NCBI GenBank assembly: GCA_009925045.1
Contig: RFQK01000024.1
Coordinates: 1-12,809 of the forward strand
Source: Methylococcaceae bacterium
GTDB taxonomy: Bacteria > Pseudomonadota > Gammaproteobacteria > Methylococcales > Methylomonadaceae
Reading direction: 5' to 3'
DNA length: 12,809 nt
Below are positions 1,182 to 12,709 of this stretch, piece after piece; within the stretch, counting starts at the first letter, position 1; every line of letters begins with the position of its first letter. Position numbers and translations under genes: made by a program. The notes beneath the pieces were generated by a model. It ran no database searches and was not told where the DNA came from. It worked only from the letters and a program-made list of their open reading frames with translations.

Positions 1182-2399
1182 GTGAAGAAAACAAAGCATT
1201 TGTTTGTCAGTATGTTGTTGATGGGCATGGGCCTTGAAACAGCTCAGGCAGACTATACATTGAACCTTGTTCAAGGGTCAACGCAGCTCAGTCATGAGCT
1301 TTATGATCTGCATATGCTAATTCTGTGGATCTGCGTTTTCATTGGTATCGCCGTTTTCGGCACCATGTTCTATTCGATTTTCCATCATCGGAAATCCAAG
1401 GGTCATCAGGCTGCGCAATTTCACGAAAACACTACCGTTGAAATCATTTGGACCATCATTCCGACCTTGATTCTGGTAGCAATGGCAATTCCTGCAACTA
1501 AAGCGGTTATTGATCTCGACCATGTTCAAGACTCGGATATGTCGATCAAAGTCACTGGTAAACAGTGGTATTGGGAATATGAATATCTGGATAGCGGTCT
1601 GCGTTTTGAAAGTCACTTAGATGAAGCCAGTGAAAAAGCGCACCGTGTTAGCAGTATTGATCCACGTTCAGTTCCTAACTACTTGCTGAATGTTGATAAG
1701 CCTTTGGTGATTCCTGTTAAGAAGAAAATTCGTTTCTTGTTTACTGCCGGTGATGTAATCCATTCTTGGTGGGTGCCTGATTTAGGCTGGAAAAAAGACG
1801 CCAACCCTGGTTTTGTGAATGATGCATGGACTTCTATCGATAAACCAGGTGTTTATCGTGGTCAATGTACTGAGCTTTGTGGTCGCGATCACGGCTTTAT
1901 GCCTATCGTGGTCATCGCTATGGAGCAAGATCAATACGATGCCTGGGTTAAGAGTGAAATTGAAAAACAAGCCAAGGGTCCAGATTTAGATAAACACACC
2001 CGTTCAGACTTGTTATCTAAAGGTGAGTCAGTTTATTTGCGCAATTGCGTTGCCTGTCACCAAATCGACGGTAAAGGTATTTCAGGTTGGTACCCAGCTT
2101 TGAGAGGCAGTGCCAAAGTAACCGGTGATACATCGCAATTAATGGGCTTTATTCAAGCCGGTACCAGCAAAATGCCAGCCTTCAAAAAATTGAAAGCTGA
2201 CGAATTGGCCACTTTGGTTACCTATTTGAGAAATAGTCCTGATCTTGGCAATTCAGTGGGTGATGAAACTCAGGCCTGCCAAGCCCTGTCACTCGACGAT
2301 CTAGATGACTTGTATCCGGACATTGATAATGCGCCGCAACTTTGTAAGGAGTTTGGTGAAGTCAAGCCTGAAAAAGTTGTTTCTGAGAAGAAAGACTGA
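1182..2399 (+). CDS. coxB: Cytochrome c oxidase subunit II with fused C-terminal cytochrome c domain (caa3-type)
   Basis: This 405-residue subunit accepts electrons from cytochrome c and passes them through CuA to subunit I. A signal peptide (residues 1-23, ending AQA before D24) is followed by two membrane helices near 44-66 and 86-110, then the periplasmic cupredoxin domain. The binuclear CuA ligands are all present: H194 (VIHSWWVPD), C229, E231, C233, H237 and M240 in CTELCGRDHGFM. A cytochrome c domain follows, with heme motif CVACH at 289-293 and probable axial Met331 in SKMPAF. It is therefore a caa3-like oxidase carrying its own cytochrome c. The last 45 residues are an acidic/lysine-rich tail with two further cysteines (C366, C388), which is less usual. 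The start is GTG with an AGGAGG seven bases upstream. It is the first gene of the oxidase operon; coxA follows after 42 bases. Confidence 0.96.
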   Translation: MKKTKHLFVSMLLMGMGLETAQADYTLNLVQGSTQLSHELYDLHMLILWICVFIGIAVFGTMFYSIFHHRKSKGHQAAQFHENTTVEIIWTIIPTLILVAMAIPATKAVIDLDHVQDSDMSIKVTGKQWYWEYEYLDSGLRFESHLDEASEKAHRVSSIDPRSVPNYLLNVDKPLVIPVKKKIRFLFTAGDVIHSWWVPDLGWKKDANPGFVNDAWTSIDKPGVYRGQCTELCGRDHGFMPIVVIAMEQDQYDAWVKSEIEKQAKGPDLDKHTRSDLLSKGESVYLRNCVACHQIDGKGISGWYPALRGSAKVTGDTSQLMGFIQAGTSKMPAFKKLKADELATLVTYLRNSPDLGNSVGDETQACQALSLDDLDDLYPDIDNAPQLCKEFGEVKPEKVVSEKKD

Positions 2400-2427
2400 T
2401 TTCGGATAACGCATTTTTAATTTTTGC

Positions 2428-2433
2428 TGAGGT
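2428..2433 (+). promoter_or_regulatory. Ribosome binding site deciding the coxA start
   Basis: TGAGGT lies eight bases before the ATG at 2442. It supports that ATG over the in-frame TTG at 2424, which overlaps this site and has no such signal. Confidence 0.7.
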
Positions 2434-2441
2434 ATTTATTT

Positions 2442-4055
2442 ATGGCTTCTGTCGTAGCTGAACACGATGATCATCACGATCACCATGATCATGGTCCTGA
2501 AAAAGGGCTTTTGAGATGGATTATTACTACTAACCACAAAGATATTGGCACGCTGTATCTGTTGTTTGCGCTGGTCATGTTCTTTGTGGGCGGCACCATG
2601 GCCCTGATCATTCGCTCTGAATTGTTCGAGCCAGGTCTGCAGTTTGTGGATCCACAGTTCTTCAACTCTATGACTACCATGCATGCTCTGGTGATGGTAT
2701 TCGGTGCTGTTATGCCGGCATTCGTCGGTCTGGCCAACTGGATGATACCGATGATGATCGGTGCGCCTGATATGGCTTTGCCACGTATGAATAACATGAG
2801 TTTCTGGATGCTGGTTGCCGGTGTGTTGTTGCTGGCAGCAACCTTATTCATGGAAGGTGGCGCACCTGCGGGTGGCTGGACACTGTATCCACCTTTGGTT
2901 TTGCAAACCGGTAAGGCTTTGCCTTTCGCTATTTTCTCTGTGCATATGCTGGGTGTTTCGTCCATCATGGGCGCTATCAACGTGATCGCGACCATTTTTA
3001 ATATGCGCGCTCCAGGCATGACATTGATGAAAATGCCATTATTCGTTTGGACCTGGTTGATCACAGCATTCTTGCTGATCGCTATCATGCCGGTTTTCGC
3101 GGGTGCGGTGACTATGTTGTTAACAGATCGTTTCTTTGATACCAGCTTCTTTAATGCAGCGGGTGGCGGGGATCCGGTTTTGTATCAGCACATTTTCTGG
3201 TTCTTCGGACATCCAGAAGTGTATGTCATGATTCTGCCTACATTCGGTGTTGCCTCAACGATTATTCCAGTATTTGCCCGTAAACCTTTGTTTGGTTATG
3301 CCTCTATGGTTTATGCAACGGCTGCGATTGCTTTTCTGTCTTTCATTGTTTGGGCTCACCACATGTTTACTGTGGGTCTGCCAATTGCCGGTGAGTTGTA
3401 CTTCATGTATGCCACTATGCTGATTGCTATTCCAACCGGTGTTAAAGTCTTTAACTGGACTGCCACCATGTGGAAAGGTGCGATGACCTTCGAAACACCG
3501 ATGTTGTTTTCGATTGCCTTCGTGGTCTTATTCACCATGGGTGGTTTTACTGGTTTGATGATGTCAGTTGCACCGGTTGACTTCCAGTATCACGACACTT
3601 ATTTCATCGTTGCTCACTTCCATTACACCTTGGTACCCGCGTCAGTATTTATTCTGATGGCATCGGGTTATTACTGGTTGCCTAAATGGACTGGCAATAT
3701 GTATAACGAAAAAATTGGTCGTTTACATTTCTGGTTGTCAGCGGTATCGGTCAATATTTTGTTTTTTCCACAGCACTTCTTAGGTCTGGCGGGTATGCCA
3801 CGTCGTATTCCCGACTATGCCATTCAGTTTGCTGACTGGAACATGGTATCGAGTATTGGTGCTTTCATGTATGGCTTCAGCCAGCTGTTGTTTGTTTGGA
3901 TTGTGATCGACACCATTAAAGGTGGTGTGGGTAAAGCGACAGATGAAGTCTGGGAAGATGCGAGTAAACATGGTTTGGAATGGACTGTGCCTTCACCAGC
4001 CCCCTACCATACCTTTACAACGCCACCAGAAATCATTCCAACTGAGCATTTATAA
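2442..4055 (+). CDS. coxA: Cytochrome c oxidase subunit I (aa3-type catalytic subunit)
   Basis: This 537-residue heme-copper oxidase subunit reduces O2 to water and pumps protons across the inner membrane. All metal ligands are present: H81 and H394 for low-spin heme a, H392 for heme a3, and H257, H306 and H307 for CuB. Y261 in HPEVY is the residue cross-linked to the CuB histidine. Spacing from H257 to H394 matches the Paracoccus enzyme exactly. D-channel residues D110 and N117/N118 (APDMALPRMNN), E259, and K-channel T332/K335 (PTGVKVFNW) are retained, so this is an A-type oxidase. The cytoplasmic N-terminus has a short histidine/aspartate-rich run (residues 8-17, six His). The ATG at 2442 is preferred because of its ribosome binding site. 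A hairpin at 4080-4104 and a miniprotein gene separate coxA from ctaG. Confidence 0.97.
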   Translation: MASVVAEHDDHHDHHDHGPEKGLLRWIITTNHKDIGTLYLLFALVMFFVGGTMALIIRSELFEPGLQFVDPQFFNSMTTMHALVMVFGAVMPAFVGLANWMIPMMIGAPDMALPRMNNMSFWMLVAGVLLLAATLFMEGGAPAGGWTLYPPLVLQTGKALPFAIFSVHMLGVSSIMGAINVIATIFNMRAPGMTLMKMPLFVWTWLITAFLLIAIMPVFAGAVTMLLTDRFFDTSFFNAAGGGDPVLYQHIFWFFGHPEVYVMILPTFGVASTIIPVFARKPLFGYASMVYATAAIAFLSFIVWAHHMFTVGLPIAGELYFMYATMLIAIPTGVKVFNWTATMWKGAMTFETPMLFSIAFVVLFTMGGFTGLMMSVAPVDFQYHDTYFIVAHFHYTLVPASVFILMASGYYWLPKWTGNMYNEKIGRLHFWLSAVSVNILFFPQHFLGLAGMPRRIPDYAIQFADWNMVSSIGAFMYGFSQLLFVWIVIDTIKGGVGKATDEVWEDASKHGLEWTVPSPAPYHTFTTPPEIIPTEHL

Positions 4056-4079
4056 GTTGGTCCTTACTTTGGGTCTGGT

Positions 4080-4104
4080 TCCTCTCGCTGCTTGAGCGAG
4101 GGGA
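4080..4104 (+). repeat. Stable hairpin between coxA and the downstream miniprotein gene
   Basis: TCCTCTCGCT and AGCGAGGGGA form a 10-bp stem (one G-T pair) around a GCTTG loop. No T-run follows, so it is not a classical terminator. It probably acts as an mRNA-stabilising or processing hairpin, or a partial attenuator. Any of these would let coxAB mRNA accumulate above the assembly-factor genes downstream. That role is inference. Confidence 0.6.
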
Positions 4105-4118
4105 TTACTGGCAGGATT

Positions 4119-4217
4119 ATGAAAACCAAAACAAAAAATATTTTGACAGCGCTCGTCTTGGTTGCAGTAGCCTTAAGCATCTATGTTTTGGCGGTGATTA
4201 AGGCATTGTCGCAATGA
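4119..4217 (+). CDS. 32-residue single-helix membrane miniprotein of the cox operon
   Basis: The frame from ATG 4119 to TGA 4215-4217 encodes 32 residues. A basic N-terminus (MKTKTKN) is followed by one hydrophobic helix covering roughly residues 8-27, then a short tail ending KALSQ. The stop overlaps the ctaG start (4214) by four bases, which argues for real translation and coupling. Its position between coxA and ctaG, and its architecture, match the tiny membrane proteins annotated in many proteobacterial oxidase operons as small assembly proteins. No sequence family was confirmed here. An AGGA at 4113-4116 lies rather close to the start. The basic N-terminus suggests the N-end faces the cytoplasm. 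A likely role is helping CtaG or CoxA assembly; a minor structural subunit is the alternative. Confidence 0.7.
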   Translation: MKTKTKNILTALVLVAVALSIYVLAVIKALSQ

Positions 4218-4759
4218 GTTTGGATACCGAACAAAAAAACCGGCGATTGGTCATTAAATTGATACTGATCGCTGTGTTAATGTTTGGGTTTGGCTATGCG
4301 CTGGTGCCACTTTATGATGTCTTATGTGATATCACTGGCCAGAATATAAAATTACAGCAATCTGCTACGGATCCGGTGCACGAATTTGTGGTGGATGAGA
4401 AACGCGAAGTCACGGTGGAATTTATAACCGCTGTGAATGAGAAAACGCCTATGGAGTTCCAGGCGGAAACAAGAACTTTAAAAGTACATCCCGGACAATA
4501 CTATACGGTGAATTTTAAAGCCAAGAACCTATTGAAAACGCCAATCAAGGCACAAGCCATTCCGAGTATTTCACCGGGACTGGCTGAAAGTTTTTTCAAA
4601 AAAGTTCAGTGTTTCTGTTTTGAGACCCAGTTATTTGAGGCTAAACAAGAGAAAGTGATGCCGGTGCGCTTTGTGGTTGATCCCAAACTGCCAGAGCAAT
4701 ATAAGATTATTACGTTGTCGTATACGTTTTTTGATAGAACAAACATCATTGAAAATTAA
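4214..4759 (+). CDS. ctaG: Cytochrome c oxidase assembly protein CtaG/Cox11 (CuB copper chaperone)
   Basis: This 181-residue protein has the family's normal length. Cox11/CtaG delivers copper to the CuB site of CoxA. A single membrane helix at about residues 12-30 anchors a periplasmic beta-rich domain. C38, in the YDVLCDITG motif just outside the helix, and the copper-binding CFCFETQ motif (C133 and C135) are all present. The conserved IPSISPG segment before that motif is also seen. Its ATG overlaps the stop of the upstream miniprotein gene, so the two are probably translated together. coxC follows after 14 bases. Nothing suggests loss of function. Confidence 0.95.
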   Translation: MSLDTEQKNRRLVIKLILIAVLMFGFGYALVPLYDVLCDITGQNIKLQQSATDPVHEFVVDEKREVTVEFITAVNEKTPMEFQAETRTLKVHPGQYYTVNFKAKNLLKTPIKAQAIPSISPGLAESFFKKVQCFCFETQLFEAKQEKVMPVRFVVDPKLPEQYKIITLSYTFFDRTNIIEN

Positions 4760-4773
4760 CAGGGGTTGAGGTC

Positions 4774-5646
4774 ATGTCTACAAACACAGCTTATTATATT
4801 CCGCACAAGGCGGTTTGGCCGGTGCTGGTCACCTTGGGCTTGATGATCATGCTGGCAGGTTTTGCCAACTATCTAAATGGTTCCTCAATTGGTCCAGGCA
4901 TGATGGTTACAGGTTTCAGTATTTTTATTCTGATGCTGGGTGCATGGTTTGCCTTACAGGCGACCGAAAGTGAATCGGGTATGTATAACCATGGAGTAGG
5001 TATTTCCTACCGCATGGGTATGATGTGGTTCATTTTTTCTGAGATTATGTTTTTCGGCGTATTTTTCGGAACTCTTTGGTATGCACGTAATATCTCCGTA
5101 CCCGTTTTGGGTCAAGTCGAATTAACCGGTCCAGGTCGTTCTACCCATGAAATTCTCTGGCCAGCCTTCCAAGCGATCTGGCCTACCAATGGTCCCGAAA
5201 ATGTCGGTGGTCATTTTGAAGAAATGGGCGCATTCGGCTTGCCACTTTTGAACACTTTAATTCTATTAACCAGTGGTGTGACATGTACTTGGGCGCATCA
5301 TGGCTTGTTAGCAAAAAATCGTGAGCAATTGATCAAAGGTTTGGCAGCTACTGTGGGTCTGGGTTTCTTGTTCGTATTGTGCCAAGCTTCCGAGTATTAC
5401 GAAGCCTATCATGAAATGGGTTTAACTCTGGGTTCAGGTATCTACGGTTCTACATTCTTTATGTTGACCGGCTTTCACGGTTTTCACGTCTGTGTGGGTG
5501 CAATTATTCTTGCTGTAGTTTTATTCAGAAGCTGGAAAGGACATTTTAAACCTGAAAACCACTTTGCTTTTGAAGCGGCTGCTTGGTATTGGCACTTTGT
5601 TGACGTAGTCTGGTTAGGTTTGTTTATTTTCGTATATCTGTTTTAA
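4774..5646 (+). CDS. coxC: Cytochrome c oxidase subunit III
   Basis: This 290-residue protein has about seven hydrophobic helices. Subunit III binds lipid and stabilises proton uptake by subunit I; it carries no metal. The FSEIMFFGVFF motif has the conserved membrane glutamate (E90). The AWYWHFVDVVWLGLF motif ends the protein, as is typical. The soluble loop between the second and third conserved helices (roughly residues 108-150) is long, as in other proteobacterial CoxC proteins. An AGGGG at 4761-4765, eight bases upstream, supports the ATG at 4774. This is the last gene of the oxidase operon, followed directly by a strong terminator. Confidence 0.96.
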   Translation: MSTNTAYYIPHKAVWPVLVTLGLMIMLAGFANYLNGSSIGPGMMVTGFSIFILMLGAWFALQATESESGMYNHGVGISYRMGMMWFIFSEIMFFGVFFGTLWYARNISVPVLGQVELTGPGRSTHEILWPAFQAIWPTNGPENVGGHFEEMGAFGLPLLNTLILLTSGVTCTWAHHGLLAKNREQLIKGLAATVGLGFLFVLCQASEYYEAYHEMGLTLGSGIYGSTFFMLTGFHGFHVCVGAIILAVVLFRSWKGHFKPENHFAFEAAAWYWHFVDVVWLGLFIFVYLF

Positions 5647-5663: not shown

Positions 5664-5700
5664 AAAGGCGTGAAGTTTTAAAGCTTCACGCCTTTTTTTT
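5664..5700 (+). terminator. Rho-independent terminator of the cox operon
   Basis: The arms AAAGGCGTGAAG and CTTCACGCCTTT form a perfect 12-bp stem (5664-5675 with 5684-5695) and run into a T-tract of eight. It lies between the convergent coxC and DUF2909 genes. On the minus strand only a short T-run follows the stem, so termination from that side would be weaker. Confidence 0.95.
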
Positions 5701-6024: not shown

Positions 6025-6046
6025 TAGTCCTTAACCAGTAATAGTG

Positions 6047-6775
6047 ATGAATACAAAACCTCTGTATGTAATTTGGCCATGGATATTGGCATATTGCTTA
6101 ATAGTTTCATTGCTCTGTAGTCTGGGATTTTGGCAATTAAACCGGGCAGAACAAAAGCAAGCCTTTCTCATGCAACAGCAACAGGCTATGCAAGCCCCGG
6201 CGGTTAAGCTTAACGCGCTATCAACACAGGATTTGCAGCGTTATCAGCCAGTTACAGTCAGCGGACACTTTGATAGCGAACATACGTTTTTGCTGGATAA
6301 CCAAATACTGGATGCTAAAGCGGGTTATTTTGTTCTGAGTCCGTTTATATACGATGCTAAGCGGCCAGCCATTCTGGTTAATCGGGGTTGGGTAGCACTC
6401 AACCAAGATCGCAAGCACTTACCGGAAATCCAAACCCCCGCAACGGAAATCACTATTCAAGGACGAATAAACCAATTTCCCAAGCCCGGTCTGGAACTGC
6501 CAAATGCAGAAATACCCGCTGCTGGCTGGCCGGCTGTGGTTCAGGTCATCAAAGCCTCAGCCCTCTCTGCCGGTCTTGGCTATCCAGTTGAAGACTATCA
6601 GATTGAATTGGCAGCGGATCAAGCAAATGGTTTTAAACGGCAATGGCAGCTTGCCGTTGCAATACCGCCTGAAAAACACCGTGCCTATGCAGTACAATGG
6701 TTCGGGTTAGCCGTCACCTTGACGGTGTTGTGTATTTGGCTTGTTTTTAAAAATAAACGTGAACGATCAACATAA
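6047..6775 (+). CDS. surf1: SURF1 family cytochrome oxidase assembly protein
   Basis: This 242-residue protein has two membrane helices, at about residues 8-27 and 214-234, flanking a periplasmic domain as in all SURF1/Shy1 proteins. SURF1 helps place heme a in CoxA. Family motifs are clear: LGFWQLNRAEQK after the first helix, VNRGWV in the centre, a GRIN segment, and HRAYAVQWFGLA before the last helix. The ATG at 6047 follows a GTG at 6044 in the same frame; neither has a clear ribosome binding site, and ATG is preferred. The end overlaps the next gene by 17 bases. It begins a second transcription unit running rightward, which includes the CtaA-FtsY fusion and ftsEX. Confidence 0.92.
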   Translation: MNTKPLYVIWPWILAYCLIVSLLCSLGFWQLNRAEQKQAFLMQQQQAMQAPAVKLNALSTQDLQRYQPVTVSGHFDSEHTFLLDNQILDAKAGYFVLSPFIYDAKRPAILVNRGWVALNQDRKHLPEIQTPATEITIQGRINQFPKPGLELPNAEIPAAGWPAVVQVIKASALSAGLGYPVEDYQIELAADQANGFKRQWQLAVAIPPEKHRAYAVQWFGLAVTLTVLCIWLVFKNKRERST

Positions 6776-7181
6776 AAAAAATCGCCTCACTATCGTTGTT
6801 ATTTTCGCCATGGCGATTATTCCATTTTCGATAGCTTGGTATCTCGCAGGCAATCCTAACGGATTAAAATTAGGTACTAATAATGGTGAGCTGATTGCGC
6901 CAGTGGTCACAACCGATTTGCCTGATTTTGTAGTGGTCATGCCTCAGCAGCCAAATGAGCCTGTTTTGAGTCAGATTTGGCAGGAAGATGCCCGATTACT
7001 CAAGATCAAATTGTCTCCCAGCTTGCTGGAAAAAGTGCAACAAGTTCAAGCCTATCAAGAGGCGAGTTTGCTGATTATGGATCCGCTGGGTAATCTCATG
7101 ATGCGTTATGCGGCTGGCTATGATCCTTATAAAGTCAGAAACGACTTATCAAAGTTATTAAGAATTTCACAAATTGGTTAA
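6759..7181 (+). CDS. Membrane-anchored protein of the cox cluster (SCO-neighbour type), short and cysteine-free
   Basis: This 140-residue protein starts at GTG 6759, overlapping SURF1. It has one N-terminal helix (about residues 10-30), then a GNPNG...NNGELI motif. It ends with MDPLGNLMMRY and a KVRNDLSKLLRISQIG tail. Both ends match the small, SCO-like proteins encoded between SURF1 and ctaA in gammaproteobacterial oxidase clusters. As I recall, those are usually about 170-200 residues, with a central thioredoxin-like region containing cysteines. Here the centre is short and the protein has no cysteine at all, so it may have an internal deletion or belong to a redox-inactive subgroup. A role in oxidase assembly is inferred from context only. 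A TTG at 6741 is an alternative start but lies deeper in SURF1. Confidence 0.75.
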   Translation: MNDQHKKNRLTIVVIFAMAIIPFSIAWYLAGNPNGLKLGTNNGELIAPVVTTDLPDFVVVMPQQPNEPVLSQIWQEDARLLKIKLSPSLLEKVQQVQAYQEASLLIMDPLGNLMMRYAAGYDPYKVRNDLSKLLRISQIG

Positions 7182-7185
7182 AGCT

Positions 7186-9117
7186 ATGTTTAAAAAGTTA
7201 AGTCTGTTCGGCCTTGTGTTGGCAGTTGTGGTAATCAGTCTGGGTGGTTATTTAAATCTAAAACATCAAGGTTTGGGATGTGAGGAGTGGCCGGCTTGCT
7301 ATGGTAAGGAAATCCTGGCAGGTGCAAATTCTAATCAACCTGCATGGGGACCAGAGTCAGGTGTTTTGCAGCAAATTCATCTTTATCTGGCCAGTGCTTT
7401 AGGCCTATGGGGTTTGATTCTGGCGGGCTTTGCTTTTTCCCTGTCACAACAAAAATGGTCGACTGTTGCCAAATGTCTATGGTTACTCGTGTTGATCGCT
7501 GCACAGGCCTGGGTTGGTCAAAAAACACTGGGGGCAGTGTATCAACCCATTCTGCTGACAGTTCATCACTTCCTGGGTCTTTTGACTGTGTGGAGTCTGG
7601 CTTGTCTCTATGTTTCGAGTCTGCCGCGTGTTGATAAACCTCGTTCTTGGTCGTTTTTAAATGTTTTGGTATGGCTGGCACAAGCGGTATTAGTCCTGGA
7701 AATTGTTTTGGGCAGTTGGGTTGCGAACAATTTAGGGGGATTAGCTTGTCCTGATTTCCCACGTTGTAATGGCGTATACCTACCTGAAGGCGATTATGTT
7801 GGAGCGCTGAATCTGATTCAGGCTTGGTTTAGTGAACACGTCGTCATTTTGGATGATTTAAGTCGCAGTATGTTGATGAGCTTACATTACGTGCTGAGCT
7901 TATTGGTATTTTTGATTCTCAATTGGGCTATGTTTAAAGCCACTGATGAAACTCAGCCTCGGGGTGTTCGTCGGGCGGGATCAATTCTGGCTTTAATGTT
8001 GTTATGTGAAATTTTATTCGGTGTTTTAGCCGTTAAACACGCCTTACCGCTCTCGCTGACATTAGCGCACAGTGTATGGGCCGGCTTATTAATGCTGCCC
8101 TTAATCGTTATCGCCAGACTCAGTCGTTATGGGGTTTTACCCAGCGATTTGGCCGAAATGGCTGAAGCAATTCCGCTGGTCCGCCCGGTCAGTGACGTTT
8201 CAGCTCAGCCCCAAAATCTTTATCAAAGACTGAGTAGCCAATTAAGTAGGACGCGTGGAGCCTTGGGTGGTTTACTCACTGGCCAGACAGGTGCGACCGA
8301 TTTAATTGAACAAATTGAGACCAGTTTGTTGATGGCAGACATGGGCATAGAAACTACTCAAACTATTATTCAACATCTCACGCAGACTTTGGATAAACAG
8401 CAACTGGCGGATCCGCAAACGCTGATACCGGTTCTGAAACAGCATTTGTATGAAATCTTGCAACCGTGTAGTCAGGCTTTAGTGATACCTAAGCAAGATA
8501 AGCCTTATGTGATTTTAGTAGTCGGTGTTAACGGGGCAGGTAAAACAACTTCCATCGGTAAATTGGCCCATCGCCTACAGGCACAAGGACACAGCGTTAT
8601 GTTAGCTGCGGGTGATACCTTTCGTGCTGCTGCGGTAGAGCAATTACAAACCTGGGGCGAGCGCAACCATGTGCAGGTAGTGGCGCAGCATACAGGCGCT
8701 GATTCAGCTTCAGTGATTTTCGATGCTTTGCAATCGGCTCAAGCCAAAGGTGTTGATGTATTGATTGCCGATACCGCCGGACGTTTGCATACCAAATCAA
8801 ACTTGATGGATGAGCTGAAAAAAATCAAACGGATTATGTCCAAATTAGATGAGTCAGCACCACATGAAGTCCTTCTGATTCTGGATGCAGGGACAGGTCA
8901 GAATGCCTTGTCGCAAGCGCGTCAGTTTGATGAAGCGGTGCAATTAACCGGACTGGCGCTTACTAAATTAGACGGTACCGCCAAAGGTGGTATTATTTTT
9001 GCCCTAGCTCAACAGTTAAAGCGTCCGATTCGTTTTATTGGTGTAGGCGAAGCGATGACGGATTTACAGGATTTTGATGCCCGCAGTTTTGTCGATGCCT
9101 TGTTTGAAACCCAATAA
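7186..9117 (+). CDS. ctaA-ftsY: Fusion of heme A synthase-like protein (CtaA/COX15) with SRP receptor GTPase FtsY
   Basis: A single uninterrupted frame of 643 residues joins two normally separate proteins. Residues 1-316 form an eight-helix CtaA-like unit with one candidate heme-ligand histidine in each of four helices (H65, H127 or H128, H234, H295). It has extracytoplasmic cysteine pairs C32/C38 (CEEWPAC) and C188/C194 (CPDFPRC). The second half has the typical VLGSWVANN...GLACPDFPRCNG motif. From about residue 345 the FtsY N domain begins. The G domain follows with GVNGAGKTT (447-455), DTFRAAAVEQ (477-486), DTAGR (529-533), TGQNA and TKLDGTAKGG (593-602). Both CtaA ends are normally cytoplasmic, so FtsY would sit in the cytoplasm. 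The ATG at 7186 is preferred over TTG 7174. An internal ATG at 8158 could yield a free 319-residue FtsY. In the CtaA half the helix-2 motif is QQIHLY where homologues have E..HR. ftsE follows after eight bases. Confidence 0.9.
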   Translation: MFKKLSLFGLVLAVVVISLGGYLNLKHQGLGCEEWPACYGKEILAGANSNQPAWGPESGVLQQIHLYLASALGLWGLILAGFAFSLSQQKWSTVAKCLWLLVLIAAQAWVGQKTLGAVYQPILLTVHHFLGLLTVWSLACLYVSSLPRVDKPRSWSFLNVLVWLAQAVLVLEIVLGSWVANNLGGLACPDFPRCNGVYLPEGDYVGALNLIQAWFSEHVVILDDLSRSMLMSLHYVLSLLVFLILNWAMFKATDETQPRGVRRAGSILALMLLCEILFGVLAVKHALPLSLTLAHSVWAGLLMLPLIVIARLSRYGVLPSDLAEMAEAIPLVRPVSDVSAQPQNLYQRLSSQLSRTRGALGGLLTGQTGATDLIEQIETSLLMADMGIETTQTIIQHLTQTLDKQQLADPQTLIPVLKQHLYEILQPCSQALVIPKQDKPYVILVVGVNGAGKTTSIGKLAHRLQAQGHSVMLAAGDTFRAAAVEQLQTWGERNHVQVVAQHTGADSASVIFDALQSAQAKGVDVLIADTAGRLHTKSNLMDELKKIKRIMSKLDESAPHEVLLILDAGTGQNALSQARQFDEAVQLTGLALTKLDGTAKGGIIFALAQQLKRPIRFIGVGEAMTDLQDFDARSFVDALFETQ

Positions 9118-9125
9118 TTGCCCAT

Positions 9126-9782
9126 ATGCTGAGATTTGAACACGTAAGTAAACGCTATCCGGATACTGGCGAAGTCCTGACTGAAATTAACTTCGATCTG
9201 GCCAAAGGCGAAATGGCGTTTTTAACGGGTCGCTCCGGGGCTGGGAAGAGTACCTTGCTTAAGCTGATTGCCATGATGGAGCAATGCAATCGAGGCACTA
9301 TTATGTTGGACGGCCAGAATGTCAGTCGGGTCAGTGAGCATAAAATTCCTTATCTGCGTCGCAACCTAGGGCTAATTTTTCAGGACTATAAACTGCTGAA
9401 TGACCGTACAGTGTTTGATAATGTGGCTTTGCCTTTAATTGTGTCCGGAGTTAATCATCAGGAAATTTCCCGTCGCGTCAGAGCTTCTCTGGATAAAGTG
9501 GGCTTATTGGGTAAAGAAAAGAAATATCCAGTTGCCTTATCTGGCGGAGAACAACAACGGGTAGGGATTGCTAGAGCGATTGTCAGCAAACCTAAACTGA
9601 TTCTGGCCGATGAACCGACCGGAAATCTGGATCCGGATCTTTCCAACGAGATTATGCTAATGTTCGAGGAATTCAAACATGCCGGTACTTCTTTGTTAAT
9701 TGCCACTCATGATATCGAACTGGTACACCGTTTTGCTTATCGAGTTCTTAGCCTTGATAAAGGCCATTTGATTGAGGCTTGA
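9126..9782 (+). CDS. ftsE: Cell division ATP-binding protein FtsE
   Basis: This 218-residue ABC ATPase has the normal FtsE length. With FtsX it forms a divisome complex that activates peptidoglycan hydrolases at the septum. Walker A GRSGAGKST is at residues 35-43. The Q-loop lies in GLIFQDYKLL, the signature is LSGGEQQRVG, and Walker B plus D-loop is LILADEPTGNLD. The H-loop histidine is in IATHD. The run GLIFQDYKLLNDRTVFDNVALPL is characteristic of FtsE rather than LolD-type ATPases. It starts eight bases after the ctaA-ftsY stop without a clear ribosome binding site, so it may depend on translational coupling. Its stop precedes the ftsX ATG by three bases. Confidence 0.96.
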   Translation: MLRFEHVSKRYPDTGEVLTEINFDLAKGEMAFLTGRSGAGKSTLLKLIAMMEQCNRGTIMLDGQNVSRVSEHKIPYLRRNLGLIFQDYKLLNDRTVFDNVALPLIVSGVNHQEISRRVRASLDKVGLLGKEKKYPVALSGGEQQRVGIARAIVSKPKLILADEPTGNLDPDLSNEIMLMFEEFKHAGTSLLIATHDIELVHRFAYRVLSLDKGHLIEA

Positions 9783-9785
9783 GTC

Positions 9786-10763
9786 ATGTCAAAATCGAAT
9801 GCTGTTCATAAACATAACCAATCTTTTCTGGCGCTGATCAAAGAGCGCTTTAATGCCTATTTGCTTAATCACGCTCACGGCTTATTTTCCAGTTTGGGTC
9901 GTCTGACCCGCACCCCGTTTACCTCGGCGATGACAATATTGGTGCTGGCTATCGCCATCGCCTTGGCCGGCGGTTTTTACAATATGGTTGCCAACATTCA
10001 GCAACTGACCGGCAATTTAGAAGCCAGTAACCAAATGTCGCTATTTCTTAAAGACAATATTAGCGAAGCAATGGGTCAAAAACTGGCGGATCAATTGCGT
10101 CAGCATCCCAGTTCAGAATCGGTGCGCTATATCAGTAAAAAACAGGCGATGGATGAATTCAAACTGAATAGTGGTTTTGGTGACGCCTTGTCAGCTTTAG
10201 AAACTAATCCCTTGCCTAGTGTGATTCTGGTTCAACCCAAGAACGCCTTGGAAACCGATGAAGATATGCAAAGGTTAATGCGTGAATTCAAGCAATTGCC
10301 ACAAGTTGACTTTGTGCAAGTCGATATGAAATGGGTGGAGCGTATGCAAACCATTATGTCGATTGCCAAACGTGCAGTATTTTTGGTCAGTATTTTGCTT
10401 GGTTTAGCTGTGACATTTATTACCGGCAATACCATACGCTTAGAATTGTACGATCGCCGTCATGAAGTTTATATTTCCAAACTGGTCGGGGCGACGAATG
10501 GTTTTATCCAAAGGCCTTTTCTGTATAGTGGTTTTTGGCTGGGCTTTATTTCAGGTTTCTTGGCCTGGCTCATTATTAGTGGCATGTTTTTACTAATTGA
10601 ATCCCCTGTTGAAGAATTATCAATTTTATACAACGGTTCTTTTCAATTACGTTATCTAGGCTTTTTTGAATTTTTAATCTTGATGCTGTCGACGTCCGGG
10701 TTGGCCGTAATGGGTTCATTAGGCGTATTGCATTATCAATTACGTCATCTTAAACCACAATAA
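9786..10763 (+). CDS. ftsX: Cell division protein FtsX
   Basis: This 325-residue protein has the FtsX architecture: a cytoplasmic N-terminus of about 45 residues, a first helix near 48-68, and a periplasmic domain of about 120 residues. Three further helices lie near 196-216, 247-270 and 292-314. The segment GNTIRLELYDRRHEVYISKLVGAT, between helices 2 and 3, is the conserved coupling region that contacts FtsE; SGFWLGF follows it. FtsX transmits FtsE ATP hydrolysis to periplasmic amidase activators. The gene follows ftsE by three bases. In many gammaproteobacteria rpoH comes after ftsX; here a ycgN-like gene begins after one base instead, which is a local difference in gene order. Confidence 0.95.
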   Translation: MSKSNAVHKHNQSFLALIKERFNAYLLNHAHGLFSSLGRLTRTPFTSAMTILVLAIAIALAGGFYNMVANIQQLTGNLEASNQMSLFLKDNISEAMGQKLADQLRQHPSSESVRYISKKQAMDEFKLNSGFGDALSALETNPLPSVILVQPKNALETDEDMQRLMREFKQLPQVDFVQVDMKWVERMQTIMSIAKRAVFLVSILLGLAVTFITGNTIRLELYDRRHEVYISKLVGATNGFIQRPFLYSGFWLGFISGFLAWLIISGMFLLIESPVEELSILYNGSFQLRYLGFFEFLILMLSTSGLAVMGSLGVLHYQLRHLKPQ

Positions 10764-10764
10764 C

Positions 10765-11184
10765 ATGGCTTTTTGGGAAGAAAAAACCTTAGAGCAGATG
10801 AGCCCGGAAGAATGGGAATCTTTGTGCGATCATTGTGGTAAATGCTGTTTACATAAACTGGAAGACGAAGACACCGGTGAAATCGCGTTTACCCGGGTGT
10901 GTTGTGATTTAATTGATCTCAAGACTTGTCAATGTACCCGTTATCAGGAGCGGACTGTTTTAGTCCCAGATTGCCTGGATTTAAAACAACATCAGTTTGC
11001 CGAATATAACTGGCTTCCGGATACCTGTGCTTATCGCCTGTTGGTGGATGGTCAGCCCTTGCCGGAATGGCATCCCTTAATCACCGGCAATCCCGAATCT
11101 GTGGTCCTGGCGGGAATGAAAATTACTGGCTACGCAATCAAAGAAGCAGAAGTCGATGATCTGGAGGATTATATTATTCCCTGA
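10765..11184 (+). CDS. YcgN/UPF0260 family cysteine-cluster protein
   Basis: This 139-residue protein carries the YkgJ/UPF0260-type cluster CDHCGKCCLHKL (C21, C24, C27, C28). Further conserved cysteines are at C46/C47 (RVCCDL), C55/C57 (TCQCTRY), C70 (VPDC) and C88. The opening FWEEKTLEQMSPEEWESLC and the phrase LPEWHPLITG are typical of the YcgN family. The cysteine set probably binds zinc or an iron centre; the biochemical role is not established. E. coli YcgN is about 148 residues. This one stops at DLEDYIIP, where relatives usually have a few more residues, so the very end may be clipped. It starts one base after the ftsX stop, and its last 16 bases overlap the convergent PLP-enzyme gene. 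Confidence 0.88.
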   Translation: MAFWEEKTLEQMSPEEWESLCDHCGKCCLHKLEDEDTGEIAFTRVCCDLIDLKTCQCTRYQERTVLVPDCLDLKQHQFAEYNWLPDTCAYRLLVDGQPLPEWHPLITGNPESVVLAGMKITGYAIKEAEVDDLEDYIIP

Positions 11185-11912
11185 TGATAATCCAGTCCTA
11201 ACTGCCAGTTGTCTGACTGGGCATCACCCAGTAATTCAGCAATATCCCGGTATAAAAAATTTGCGTGTTTCACCGCAGCGATGCCCAGTAGCTGCCGAGG
11301 GGGTGCTAATTGGCTGGCCAGTCCAGCCAGCGTAGTGCCGGTCCCACAAGCCAAAGCAAGCCAGTCATAATTGTCAGGCAATTCGTCGAGGATTTCTGCT
11401 ACGCCTTGCAGGGCCAGGGTAACCGCCCCGCCTTCGGGTAACCAATAGTAGTCAGGATAAGCTTTGCGCCACTGGGTGACTAATTCGGCTTGACGTAATT
11501 GTCGGTATTCCGAGCGACTCACGAAATGTACTTGCATGCCCCAGTTTTGGACATCGTTCAAAGTCGGGGTGAGTGAGGAACTGGGTTCTCCCCTTACAAG
11601 GCCGACAACGGGTAAATCGAGTTGATGACAGGCATAAGCCAACGCATGTAAATGATTAGAATAGCCCCCACCCATACTGATAATGCCAGGATAGCCAGAT
11701 TCCAATACGTGATTCAGTACATATTTAAGCTTACGCCATTTGTTTCCAGACAGGACGGGATGAATGCGTTCATCTTGTTTAATACTGAGACGAATGCCAT
11801 GGTTCTCTAGGTTGTGATCCTTGATAGACGTTAGCGGTGAAGCCTTTAGACTGAGTCGCAGAACCTCCAGTTTAGGATGCAAACCTAAGTCTGGGACTGT
11901 TTGATTGCCCAT
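11169..11912 (-). CDS. PLP-dependent ACC deaminase/D-cysteine desulfhydrase family protein, C-terminally truncated
   Basis: This 247-residue protein belongs to the tryptophan-synthase-beta-like PLP fold. SGNKWRKLKY (residues 55-64) contains the PLP lysine K58, GGGYSNHLHALA (81-92) binds substrate, and CGTGTTLAG (190-198) binds the PLP phosphate. Family members are usually about 300-330 residues. Here the frame stops just after WQLGLDYHQG, where relatives continue with a further 50-70 residues containing a YTGKM-type tyrosine segment and an HTGGLQG-type motif. That region carries active-site tyrosines in ACC deaminase. It is missing, because the coding sequence stops inside the 3' end of the convergent ycgN-like gene. 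The gene may thus be a pseudogene or encode an inactive protein. The start at 11912 overlaps folP by 28 bases and has a long N-terminal leader; a later start is possible. The substrate cannot be told. Confidence 0.78.
   Translation of the reverse strand: MGNQTVPDLGLHPKLEVLRLSLKASPLTSIKDHNLENHGIRLSIKQDERIHPVLSGNKWRKLKYVLNHVLESGYPGIISMGGGYSNHLHALAYACHQLDLPVVGLVRGEPSSSLTPTLNDVQNWGMQVHFVSRSEYRQLRQAELVTQWRKAYPDYYWLPEGGAVTLALQGVAEILDELPDNYDWLALACGTGTTLAGLASQLAPPRQLLGIAAVKHANFLYRDIAELLGDAQSDNWQLGLDYHQGII
11192..11220. repeat. Imperfect hairpin at the convergent gene junction
   Basis: The outer arms CCAGTC and GACTGG and the inner arms AACTG and CAGTT can pair around a single base, with unpaired bases in between. 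It begins eight bases after the ycgN-like stop and lies inside the end of the PLP-enzyme gene. No T-run follows on the plus strand. It may slow transcription of ycgN, but the call is weak. Confidence 0.3.
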
Positions 11913-12709
11913 GCGATATCAGCTGCCTGACGGTTTTCTCGAACGTCATGGACGCGAAATAATGTTACGCCTGCCATTACCCCTAAGGCTGTGGTAACAG
12001 CCGTGGCGGTGACTAAGGCCTCAGGTTCTGTTACATGACAAATACTGCCCATAAAACGCTTACGACTGGTGCCCAGTAGAACGGGGTAGCCGCTGCTCAC
12101 GAAGTCGCTTAAATGCGCCAATAAATCCAGATTATCCTGACGGCGTTTGCCAAAACCGATGCCAGGGTCGATAGCGATTTTTTCAGCTTTGATACCTGCG
12201 GCTAATGCAGTTTCGACCTTTTGCAATAATGAGGTTTTAACTTCCTCGACTACAGCCTCGTAATAGGGGTTGTCTTGCATGGTTTTGGGCGTGCCTTGCA
12301 TATGCATCAAAATAATCGCCACATCCTGTTGTGCGGCGACTGTCAGTATCCGTGGATCACAATCGCCTCCTGAAACATCGTTGATGATATTGGCCCCGGC
12401 TTGTATGGCCGCCTCTGCGACTACACTCGACATCGTGTCTATACTGATCGTTATTTCAGGGTGCATTGCTCGTAAACGGGCAATCACCGGGCATACACGC
12501 TCAATCTGTTGTTGAGCCGAAACCGGTTCTGAGCCTGGTCGGGTAGATTCACCGCCAATATCCAGAATATCTGCTCCCTCCGACAGCATGCGCTCGGCTT
12601 GGGCGAGTGCCTGATCCAGTTGATGGTAACGTCCGCCATCGGAAAAGCTGTCGGGAGTCAGGTTCAATATGCCCATGATTTTGGGGGATGCACTGTGCAG
12701 AATAGTCAT
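11885..12709 (-). CDS. folP: Dihydropteroate synthase FolP
   Basis: This 274-residue cytoplasmic enzyme condenses 4-aminobenzoate with the pterin pyrophosphate to form dihydropteroate in folate synthesis, and it is the sulfonamide target. The motifs are complete and in order: MGILNLTPDSFSDGG (12-26), GGESTRPG (52-59), DVSGG (111-115), MHMQGTPKTMQ (135-145), DPGIGFGK (181-188), LGTSRKRF (212-219) and RVHDV (262-266). The ATG at 12709 gives the normal length and has GGA seven bases upstream. A GTG at 12775 would add 22 residues without family likeness. In many gammaproteobacteria folP lies between ftsH and glmM; here the next gene downstream is the truncated PLP enzyme, overlapping by 28 bases. 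The region to the right edge (12710-12809) shows no confident gene. Confidence 0.95.
   Translation of the reverse strand: MTILHSASPKIMGILNLTPDSFSDGGRYHQLDQALAQAERMLSEGADILDIGGESTRPGSEPVSAQQQIERVCPVIARLRAMHPEITISIDTMSSVVAEAAIQAGANIINDVSGGDCDPRILTVAAQQDVAIILMHMQGTPKTMQDNPYYEAVVEEVKTSLLQKVETALAAGIKAEKIAIDPGIGFGKRRQDNLDLLAHLSDFVSSGYPVLLGTSRKRFMGSICHVTEPEALVTATAVTTALGVMAGVTLFRVHDVRENRQAADIAWAIKQSQT

Follow-up and report, generated by a model that had tools for sequence, protein, structure and literature searches.

The window, a 12,809-nucleotide stretch of DNA from a Methylococcaceae bacterium (order Methylococcales), raises the question of whether a heme A synthase-like membrane protein (CtaA) and the signal recognition particle (SRP) receptor FtsY can form a single natural polypeptide and, if so, what each half contributes to it. 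The reading preferred here, to which a probability of roughly 0.8 is assigned on sequence comparison, is that the gene specifies a natural, permanently anchored SRP receptor whose CtaA-derived anchor would have been acquired through a single inversion, with the catalytic half of CtaA decaying and its heme-B bundle kept. The features of the window are as follows.

1182..5646, + strand: coxB, coxA, ctaG and coxC, an upstream aa3-type oxidase cluster (translations; names by reading)
5664..5695, no strand assigned: terminator-like hairpin of 14 pairs past coxC (consensus match only)
6044..6775, + strand: surf1, upstream of the fusion (PF02104)
6741..7181, + strand: small conserved membrane protein gene between surf1 and ctaA (open reading frame; relatives' loci)
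7186..9117, + strand: fused ctaA::ftsY, 643 aa, product P0001 (open frame; Pfam; conserved in 87 of 101 genomes of the order)
7186..7635, + strand: CtaA N-terminal four-helix bundle, residues 1-150, with ECL1 Cys 32 and 38, Q62 at the E57 position, H65 (=H60) and H127 (=H123) (alignment; half assignment from PMC8239418 and PMC7327177)
7648..8121, + strand: CtaA C-terminal four-helix bundle (heme-B half), residues 155-312, with ECL3 Cys 188 and 194, H234 (=H216) and H295 (=H278) (alignment)
8122..8220, + strand: predicted cytoplasmic linker, residues 313-345, in the place of the FtsY A domain (alignment)
8212..8448, + strand: FtsY N domain including its first helix, residues 343-421 (Pfam SRP54_N; E. 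coli FtsY alignment)
8503..9105, + strand: FtsY G domain (SRP54 GTPase), residues 440-640 (Pfam; E. coli FtsY alignment)
9126..9782, + strand: ftsE, immediately downstream (Pfam ABC transporter; name by position and reading)
9786..10763, + strand: ftsX (Pfam FtsX and FtsX_ECD)

A single stop-free frame occupies 7174/7186-9117 on the forward strand and, read from the ATG at 7186, encodes the 643 residues of P0001 (ORF list and translation). Three Pfam domains lie above their curated cut-offs, namely COX15-CtaA at residues 5-304 (E 5e-31), SRP54_N at 362-421 and the SRP54 GTPase at 440-640 (E 9e-77). In the PDB sequence search, E. coli FtsY is the top match and spans residues 342-641; P0001 scores to FtsY at E 7e-105 versus approximately 4e-43 to Ffh, identifying it as FtsY rather than Ffh, and the frame terminates directly past the NG domain, without an M domain. 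The G motifs of SRP-type GTPases, GVNGAGKTT, DTAGR and TKLDG, are all present. The CtaA part alone retrieves only the Aquifex 'Heme O oxygenase' in the same search, and weakly (E 5e-4). A hydropathy scan yields nine peaks above 1.1, of which a weak one (1.17) falls within the second large loop, so that eight helices are a plausible count for the CtaA part; the segment past the last helix contains six Lys and Arg residues, as expected for a cytoplasmic side. The hallmarks of the COX15-CtaA fold are found as well: the fold itself, the eight helices (by hydropathy only), four cysteines (C32, C38, C188 and C194) and, by alignment, all four heme-ligand histidines, H65, H127, H234 and H295. The proposed catalytic glutamate (E57) is replaced by Q62, and the Arg following H60 and the Arg following H216 are both altered, with the four His and four Cys kept. 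P0001 is accordingly assigned to the CtaA fold, and enzyme activity is not claimed for it because of the E57-to-Gln replacement. The original prediction of an in-frame CtaA-FtsY fusion with a complete NG GTPase, a compatible topology and a substituted acidic A domain is thus supported, residues 313-345 standing where the A domain would be.

Around the fusion, the stop codon of the small membrane protein gene lies 4 bases upstream of the fusion ATG. Its product has 146 residues, against approximately 200 in aligned relatives, and an internal segment of very roughly 60 residues with conserved cysteines is absent, which may reflect a real deletion or an assembly collapse. Since the terminator-like hairpin follows coxC, surf1, the small gene, ctaA::ftsY, ftsE and ftsX may constitute a separate transcription unit.

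The first matter to settle is whether the fusion is real. The alternative that had been raised, an assembly error or a recent deletion scar confined to one genome, could draw on the state of the assembly, which comprises 2.0 Mb in 478 contigs, is 83% complete and carries the window on contig 147. Of 101 genomes sampled from the order, however, 87 carry the fusion in one stop-free frame (ORFs were read directly in 75, the other 12 being judged by single in-frame matches); at least 15 of these 87 are given as single contigs, and the fusion is common to six of the eight families sampled. A full-length protein 99% identical to P0001 (P0002) represents 11 member sequences on two contigs from three sources. 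Both artefactual origins are therefore rejected, and the probability left to them is negligible; the search for the same domain pair in related genomes, proposed together with the prediction, has succeeded. The protein occurs, among other named holders, in Methylomonas, Methylomarinum, Methylotuvimicrobium and Methylobacter, and the source names encountered are FtsY or 'fused signal recognition particle receptor' and, once, 'hypothetical protein'. The 14 genomes of the order without the fusion are all 11 sampled members of family f7, both of family f8, and G040 (77% complete), in which no ftsY was found.

Beyond the order, the fusion was absent among the matches listed for 365 other-order genomes of a class sample of 369 genomes (four of the same order; 15 genomes without a match). 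It was likewise absent outside the order among 198 other genomes of a phylum sample of 199 including the window's own, at a threshold of 1e-110 that distant fusions could escape and with the genomes lacking a match listed only in part. A plasmid search returned 81 records, none spanning 80% of the query. Two long frames around other-order FtsY (L058 and L060) have no CtaA-like start; they resemble antisense of the upstream gene that happens to lack stops and enters an ordinary FtsY start. The check for a CtaA-like start covered these two of the long other-order frames, which also include those of G365 (944 aa) and G420 (615 aa). A betaproteobacterial locus from a scan of named genomes with the CtaA part was also discarded, as the match covers 34 residues and its long ORFs carry no FtsY motif.

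FtsY is essential in E. coli, and the fusion appears to be the only receptor gene available. The copy-number check on the window's genome gave a divided outcome: no second ftsY was found in this 83% complete assembly, and a second, diverged CtaA was (L002:1474-2448). Across the 101 genomes of the order there is at most one FtsY-level match (E below approximately 1e-43) per genome. The exception is the unfused f7 genome G089, with two matches on contigs C244 and C223 that reflect contamination or duplication.

How the two genes came to be joined can be read from the FtsY NG tree and from gene order. The tree, of 90 rows, combines 51 of the 74 distinct fused proteins with 11 f7, one f8 and 27 other-order sequences, and the fused rows form one clade, with a single change and an SH-aLRT support of 96 in a tree built by a quick method without bootstrap and with a midpoint root. 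The f8 row is the next to join this clade, with a weaker support of 81, and f7 lies outside. In the unfused f7 and f8 genomes, M16 peptidase genes point away from ftsY-ftsE-ftsX-rpoH, which is followed by a convergent ctaB-ctaA. This convergent order is present in 10 of the 11 f7 genomes (nine in the fetched stretch, G080 from match coordinates) and in one of the two f8 genomes (G067), G066 and G073 being interrupted by contig ends; in the five f7 loci whose flanks reach far enough (L104, L105, L106, L109 and L111), the small gene is found on the far side of ctaA. M16 also adjoins ftsY in 26 of 27 other-order loci, which marks the M16-ftsY arrangement as ancestral. In the fused family f6, the order is the small gene, ctaA::ftsY, ftsE, ftsX, rpoH, ctaB on the opposite strand and M16. 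It is complete in all three loci with enough flank (L089, L094 and L097, the last without an ftsE/ftsX match in between), and ctaB lies on the opposite strand at most 8 kb from the fusion in all nine f6 genomes with a ctaB match above the cut-off (10 sampled). In most other fused genomes, the ctaB match is elsewhere.

A single inversion apparently produced the f6 order, one breakpoint falling between ctaA and ctaB and the other at the 5' end of ftsY, and the join itself apparently traces to this one, ancient event. In the proposed scenario, which places a single origin in the ancestor of most of the order, the ftsY-ftsE-ftsX-rpoH-ctaB block would have been inverted so that the 3' end of ctaA was joined in frame to ftsY, at a junction just upstream of the NG domain that replaced the A domain. 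Two further features were seen in these intervals: one f6 genome carries a pmoC/amoC-type gene between ftsX and rpoH (L094:8634-9548), and an unfused f8 locus contains two 470-aa ORFs between rpoH and ctaB (L101:9486-10895 and 10899-12308), the first of them COX1-like.

A genuine joined frame could still yield a separate FtsY, through internal initiation or proteolytic release of NG, with the CtaA part acting alone. The linker, which varies in length and sequence among relatives, would accommodate this, and E. coli FtsY is known to be processed near its N terminus. Internal translation of FtsY, which had been suggested as an accompaniment of a deletion scar, is nevertheless not supported: between residues 312 and 372, no conserved internal start was found, with an ATG in 12 of 74 fused genes and a start codon with a Shine-Dalgarno (SD)-like match in 11 of 74, and in neither case is the position conserved. 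Moreover, the frame is maintained in every fused lineage read despite changes in linker length and composition, and the CtaA part stays despite decay of its catalytic half in many lineages, as would be expected if the joined form is needed. Separate production of FtsY is hence considered unlikely. Two linkers (L098 and L117, from G034 and G004) contain long Ala-Glu repeats between the last helix and NG.

A protein in which FtsY NG was joined to an unrelated membrane protein was reportedly functional (Zelazny 1997, cited in PMC2780400). According to PMC2780400, membrane-tethered FtsY derivatives function in E. coli in vivo, and some Gram-positive and archaeal FtsYs carry a true transmembrane helix. 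Because tethered FtsY works and natural transmembrane FtsYs exist, a permanent anchor is mechanistically acceptable. In the preferred reading, the organism's SRP receptor is the full-length protein, which would be made, inserted and used for SRP docking while a CtaA-derived polytopic domain keeps it permanently in the membrane. Its eight helices would insert with both chain ends in the cytoplasm, and NG, tethered by a linker a few tens of residues long, would dock SRP at the membrane without a soluble phase. The CtaA part would be locked in because FtsY is essential.

What the CtaA half does is a separate issue. In ordinary CtaA, the C-terminal bundle binds heme B via two histidines and the N-terminal bundle is the substrate and catalytic half; of the two Cys pairs, that of ECL1 is important for activity and that of ECL3 is not (PMC8239418 and PMC7327177). 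The residue proposed to be catalytic is E57, and either His or Asn occupies the H60 position (PMC12808453). The fused protein is classified as ancestrally CtaA class B type 1.1, and its two bundles have fared differently. Among 74 distinct fused proteins, E57 is kept in 40, H60 in 60 and H123 in 61, and each ECL1 Cys in 65, one of the missing cases (L023) being due only to truncation at a contig end; ECL3 Cys, H216 and H278 are each kept in 73. Taken as pairs, the N-bundle histidines are kept in 59 of 74 and the C-bundle histidines in 73 of 74. On the FtsY tree, the minimum number of changes is 13 for E57, 13 for H60, 12 for H123 and 14 for the H60/H123 pair, versus one for each C-half site. 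The only fused protein of the 74 without the C-bundle heme ligands, L083 (from G060, 76% complete), keeps the N-bundle ones. Individual cases differ in form: the N bundle is mostly gone in G048 (565-aa frame), the ECL3 loop is absent in G043, for which Pfam reports no CtaA, and six g11 genomes, one of which is a 100% match to the M. alcaliphilum protein, all combine H60R and H123Q with a kept E57. Two database searches gave 239 proteins, counting the window's own; across these, the C-half histidines and both Cys pairs are invariant, and E57, H60 and H123 are present in 210, 220 and 230, respectively. Many fused CtaAs of the Methylomonas type retain all catalytic residues and may still possess heme A synthase activity.

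Unfused CtaAs from other orders served as controls. A class B query matched 111 distinct unfused places, 109 of which were read (all except G274 and G281); the N-half is intact in 104 of 109 and the C-half in 109 of 109, in a set picked by similarity to intact CtaA and thus biased toward intact copies. Erosion is far commoner in the fused lineage than in these controls; a Fisher test of the contrast, which takes genomes to be independent, is given no weight. All five eroded controls keep the C-half. In four of them, E57 and H123 are replaced, H123 by Asn, resembling a subtype in table 1 of PMC8239418; the fifth is in G182, both copies of which are among the five. Retention of the C-half upon decay of the N-half is therefore not peculiar to the fusion, and the idea that the heme ligands are kept only because of FtsY is weakened. 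Purifying selection acts on all parts of the fused protein: dN/dS is 0.008-0.074 for NG over the computed pairs and below 0.3 for both CtaA bundles wherever computable. Among 11 pairs with an intact site, the N bundle gives 0.00-0.10 in 10 and 0.28 in one, which has a very small dS; in the one eroded genus tested it gives 0.15-0.20, raised yet well under 1, which indicates that this half is still constrained.

Most fused genomes also carry a separate CtaA. At least two CtaA matches occur in 82 of 87 fused genomes, although not all were read and split matches may count double. The separate copy of the window's genome lies away from the window's oxidase genes, between YgfZ-like and DEAD-helicase-like ORFs (names by reading). 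It and 38 copies from relatives, 39 read in all, match class C type 1.3, lacking the ECL3 Cys and carrying Asn at H60; Cys pair 1, E57, N60, H216 and H278 are present in 39 of 39 and H123 in 38 of 39. In the two genomes more than 90% complete with only the fused CtaA (G056 and G064), the fused site is intact. Together with the conservation of the separate CtaA, this is consistent with heme A synthesis having passed to the latter, although the fused site is also still intact in many genomes that carry both copies. In most fused genomes, heme A is probably made by the separate class C CtaA, an arrangement that would leave the fused catalytic half free to decay, repeatedly, and in the window's genome that half would be partly decayed through the loss of E57.

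These observations bear on a bifunctional alternative, in which the fused CtaA would be the main heme A synthase and the join would coordinate oxidase assembly with membrane-protein targeting. G056 and G064 agree with it, as does the proximity of surf1 in 20 and coxA in 15 of the 23 fused loci laid out. Against this stand the second, conserved CtaA in most genomes and the repeated loss of the fused catalytic half, including E57 in P0001, and coupling of this kind is regarded as doubtful. The earlier proposition, that an oxidase assembly factor and FtsY share one polypeptide and one stoichiometry, is likewise not supported as a simple account of the CtaA half, since the window's genome has its own separate CtaA, E57 is Gln in P0001 and the fused copies of many relatives have lost their substrate-heme ligands.

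Retention of the C bundle beside FtsY is most likely explained by a role as an anchor stabilised by heme or as a module for oligomerisation; heme B is most likely still bound there, for stability or oligomerisation. Aquifex CtaA is described as a trimer with a core formed mainly by TM5 and TM6 (PMC7327177). An additional alternative casts the retained heme-B bundle as a sensor through which heme, oxygen or redox state alters SRP receptor activity. The near-invariance of the C-bundle His and ECL3 Cys (73 of 74), set against 12-13 changes per N-bundle ligand, would agree with such a role, but the eroded unfused CtaAs keep their C-half too (5 of 5), and the pattern may reflect folding or stability; sensing is thus an improbable explanation. 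Equally improbable is its extension to a hemoprotein SRP receptor in which heme supply, oxygen or membrane redox state would set the level of targeting via the heme B of the C bundle. If true, such a receptor would regulate targeting in cells that insert much membrane-bound methane monooxygenase.

On the preferred reading of a permanently anchored receptor, most of an order would represent a natural counterpart of the E. coli experiment, with an SRP receptor unable to leave the membrane, and the fusion is relevant to the question of whether cells ever require a soluble pool of FtsY. It would also illustrate that a chance inversion can lock an essential gene to an unrelated enzyme, which then decays into an anchor. 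As the source names encountered mention at most the receptor, the CtaA part, as well as the separate, conserved CtaA of methanotrophs, is easily mis-assigned in genome-based reconstructions of respiration. No description of a CtaA-FtsY pair was found in the full-text literature searched, a coverage that excludes most subscription journals, in agreement with the original prediction; the available portions of PMC9145763 and PMC3568101 hold nothing on the pair.

Among known systems, the fusion resembles E. coli-type FtsY in its complete N and G domains, G motifs, first N-domain helix and adjoining ftsE and ftsX, and in being the only SRP receptor gene found. Unlike E. coli FtsY, whose acidic domain and amphipathic helix bind lipid, it has no A domain and follows eight helices of a heme enzyme. 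The engineered protein ascribed to Zelazny 1997 likewise places NG on a membrane protein; that was a laboratory construct, whereas the fusion is natural and spread through most of an order. It shares integral membrane attachment of NG with the transmembrane-helix FtsYs of some Gram-positives and archaea; however, the latter, as described in PMC2780400, have one helix, and the fusion has a complete heme-enzyme fold of separate ancestry. With class B type 1.1 CtaA, the ancestral fused form has in common eight helices, two Cys pairs and four heme-ligand His; it differs in the covalent FtsY, the often eroded catalytic half and, in P0001, the loss of E57. Finally, CtaA is joined to another protein in the CtaA-CtaB fusions as well (PMC8239418, table 1), but in those the partner catalyses the preceding step of the same pathway, whereas here it is an unrelated targeting GTPase.
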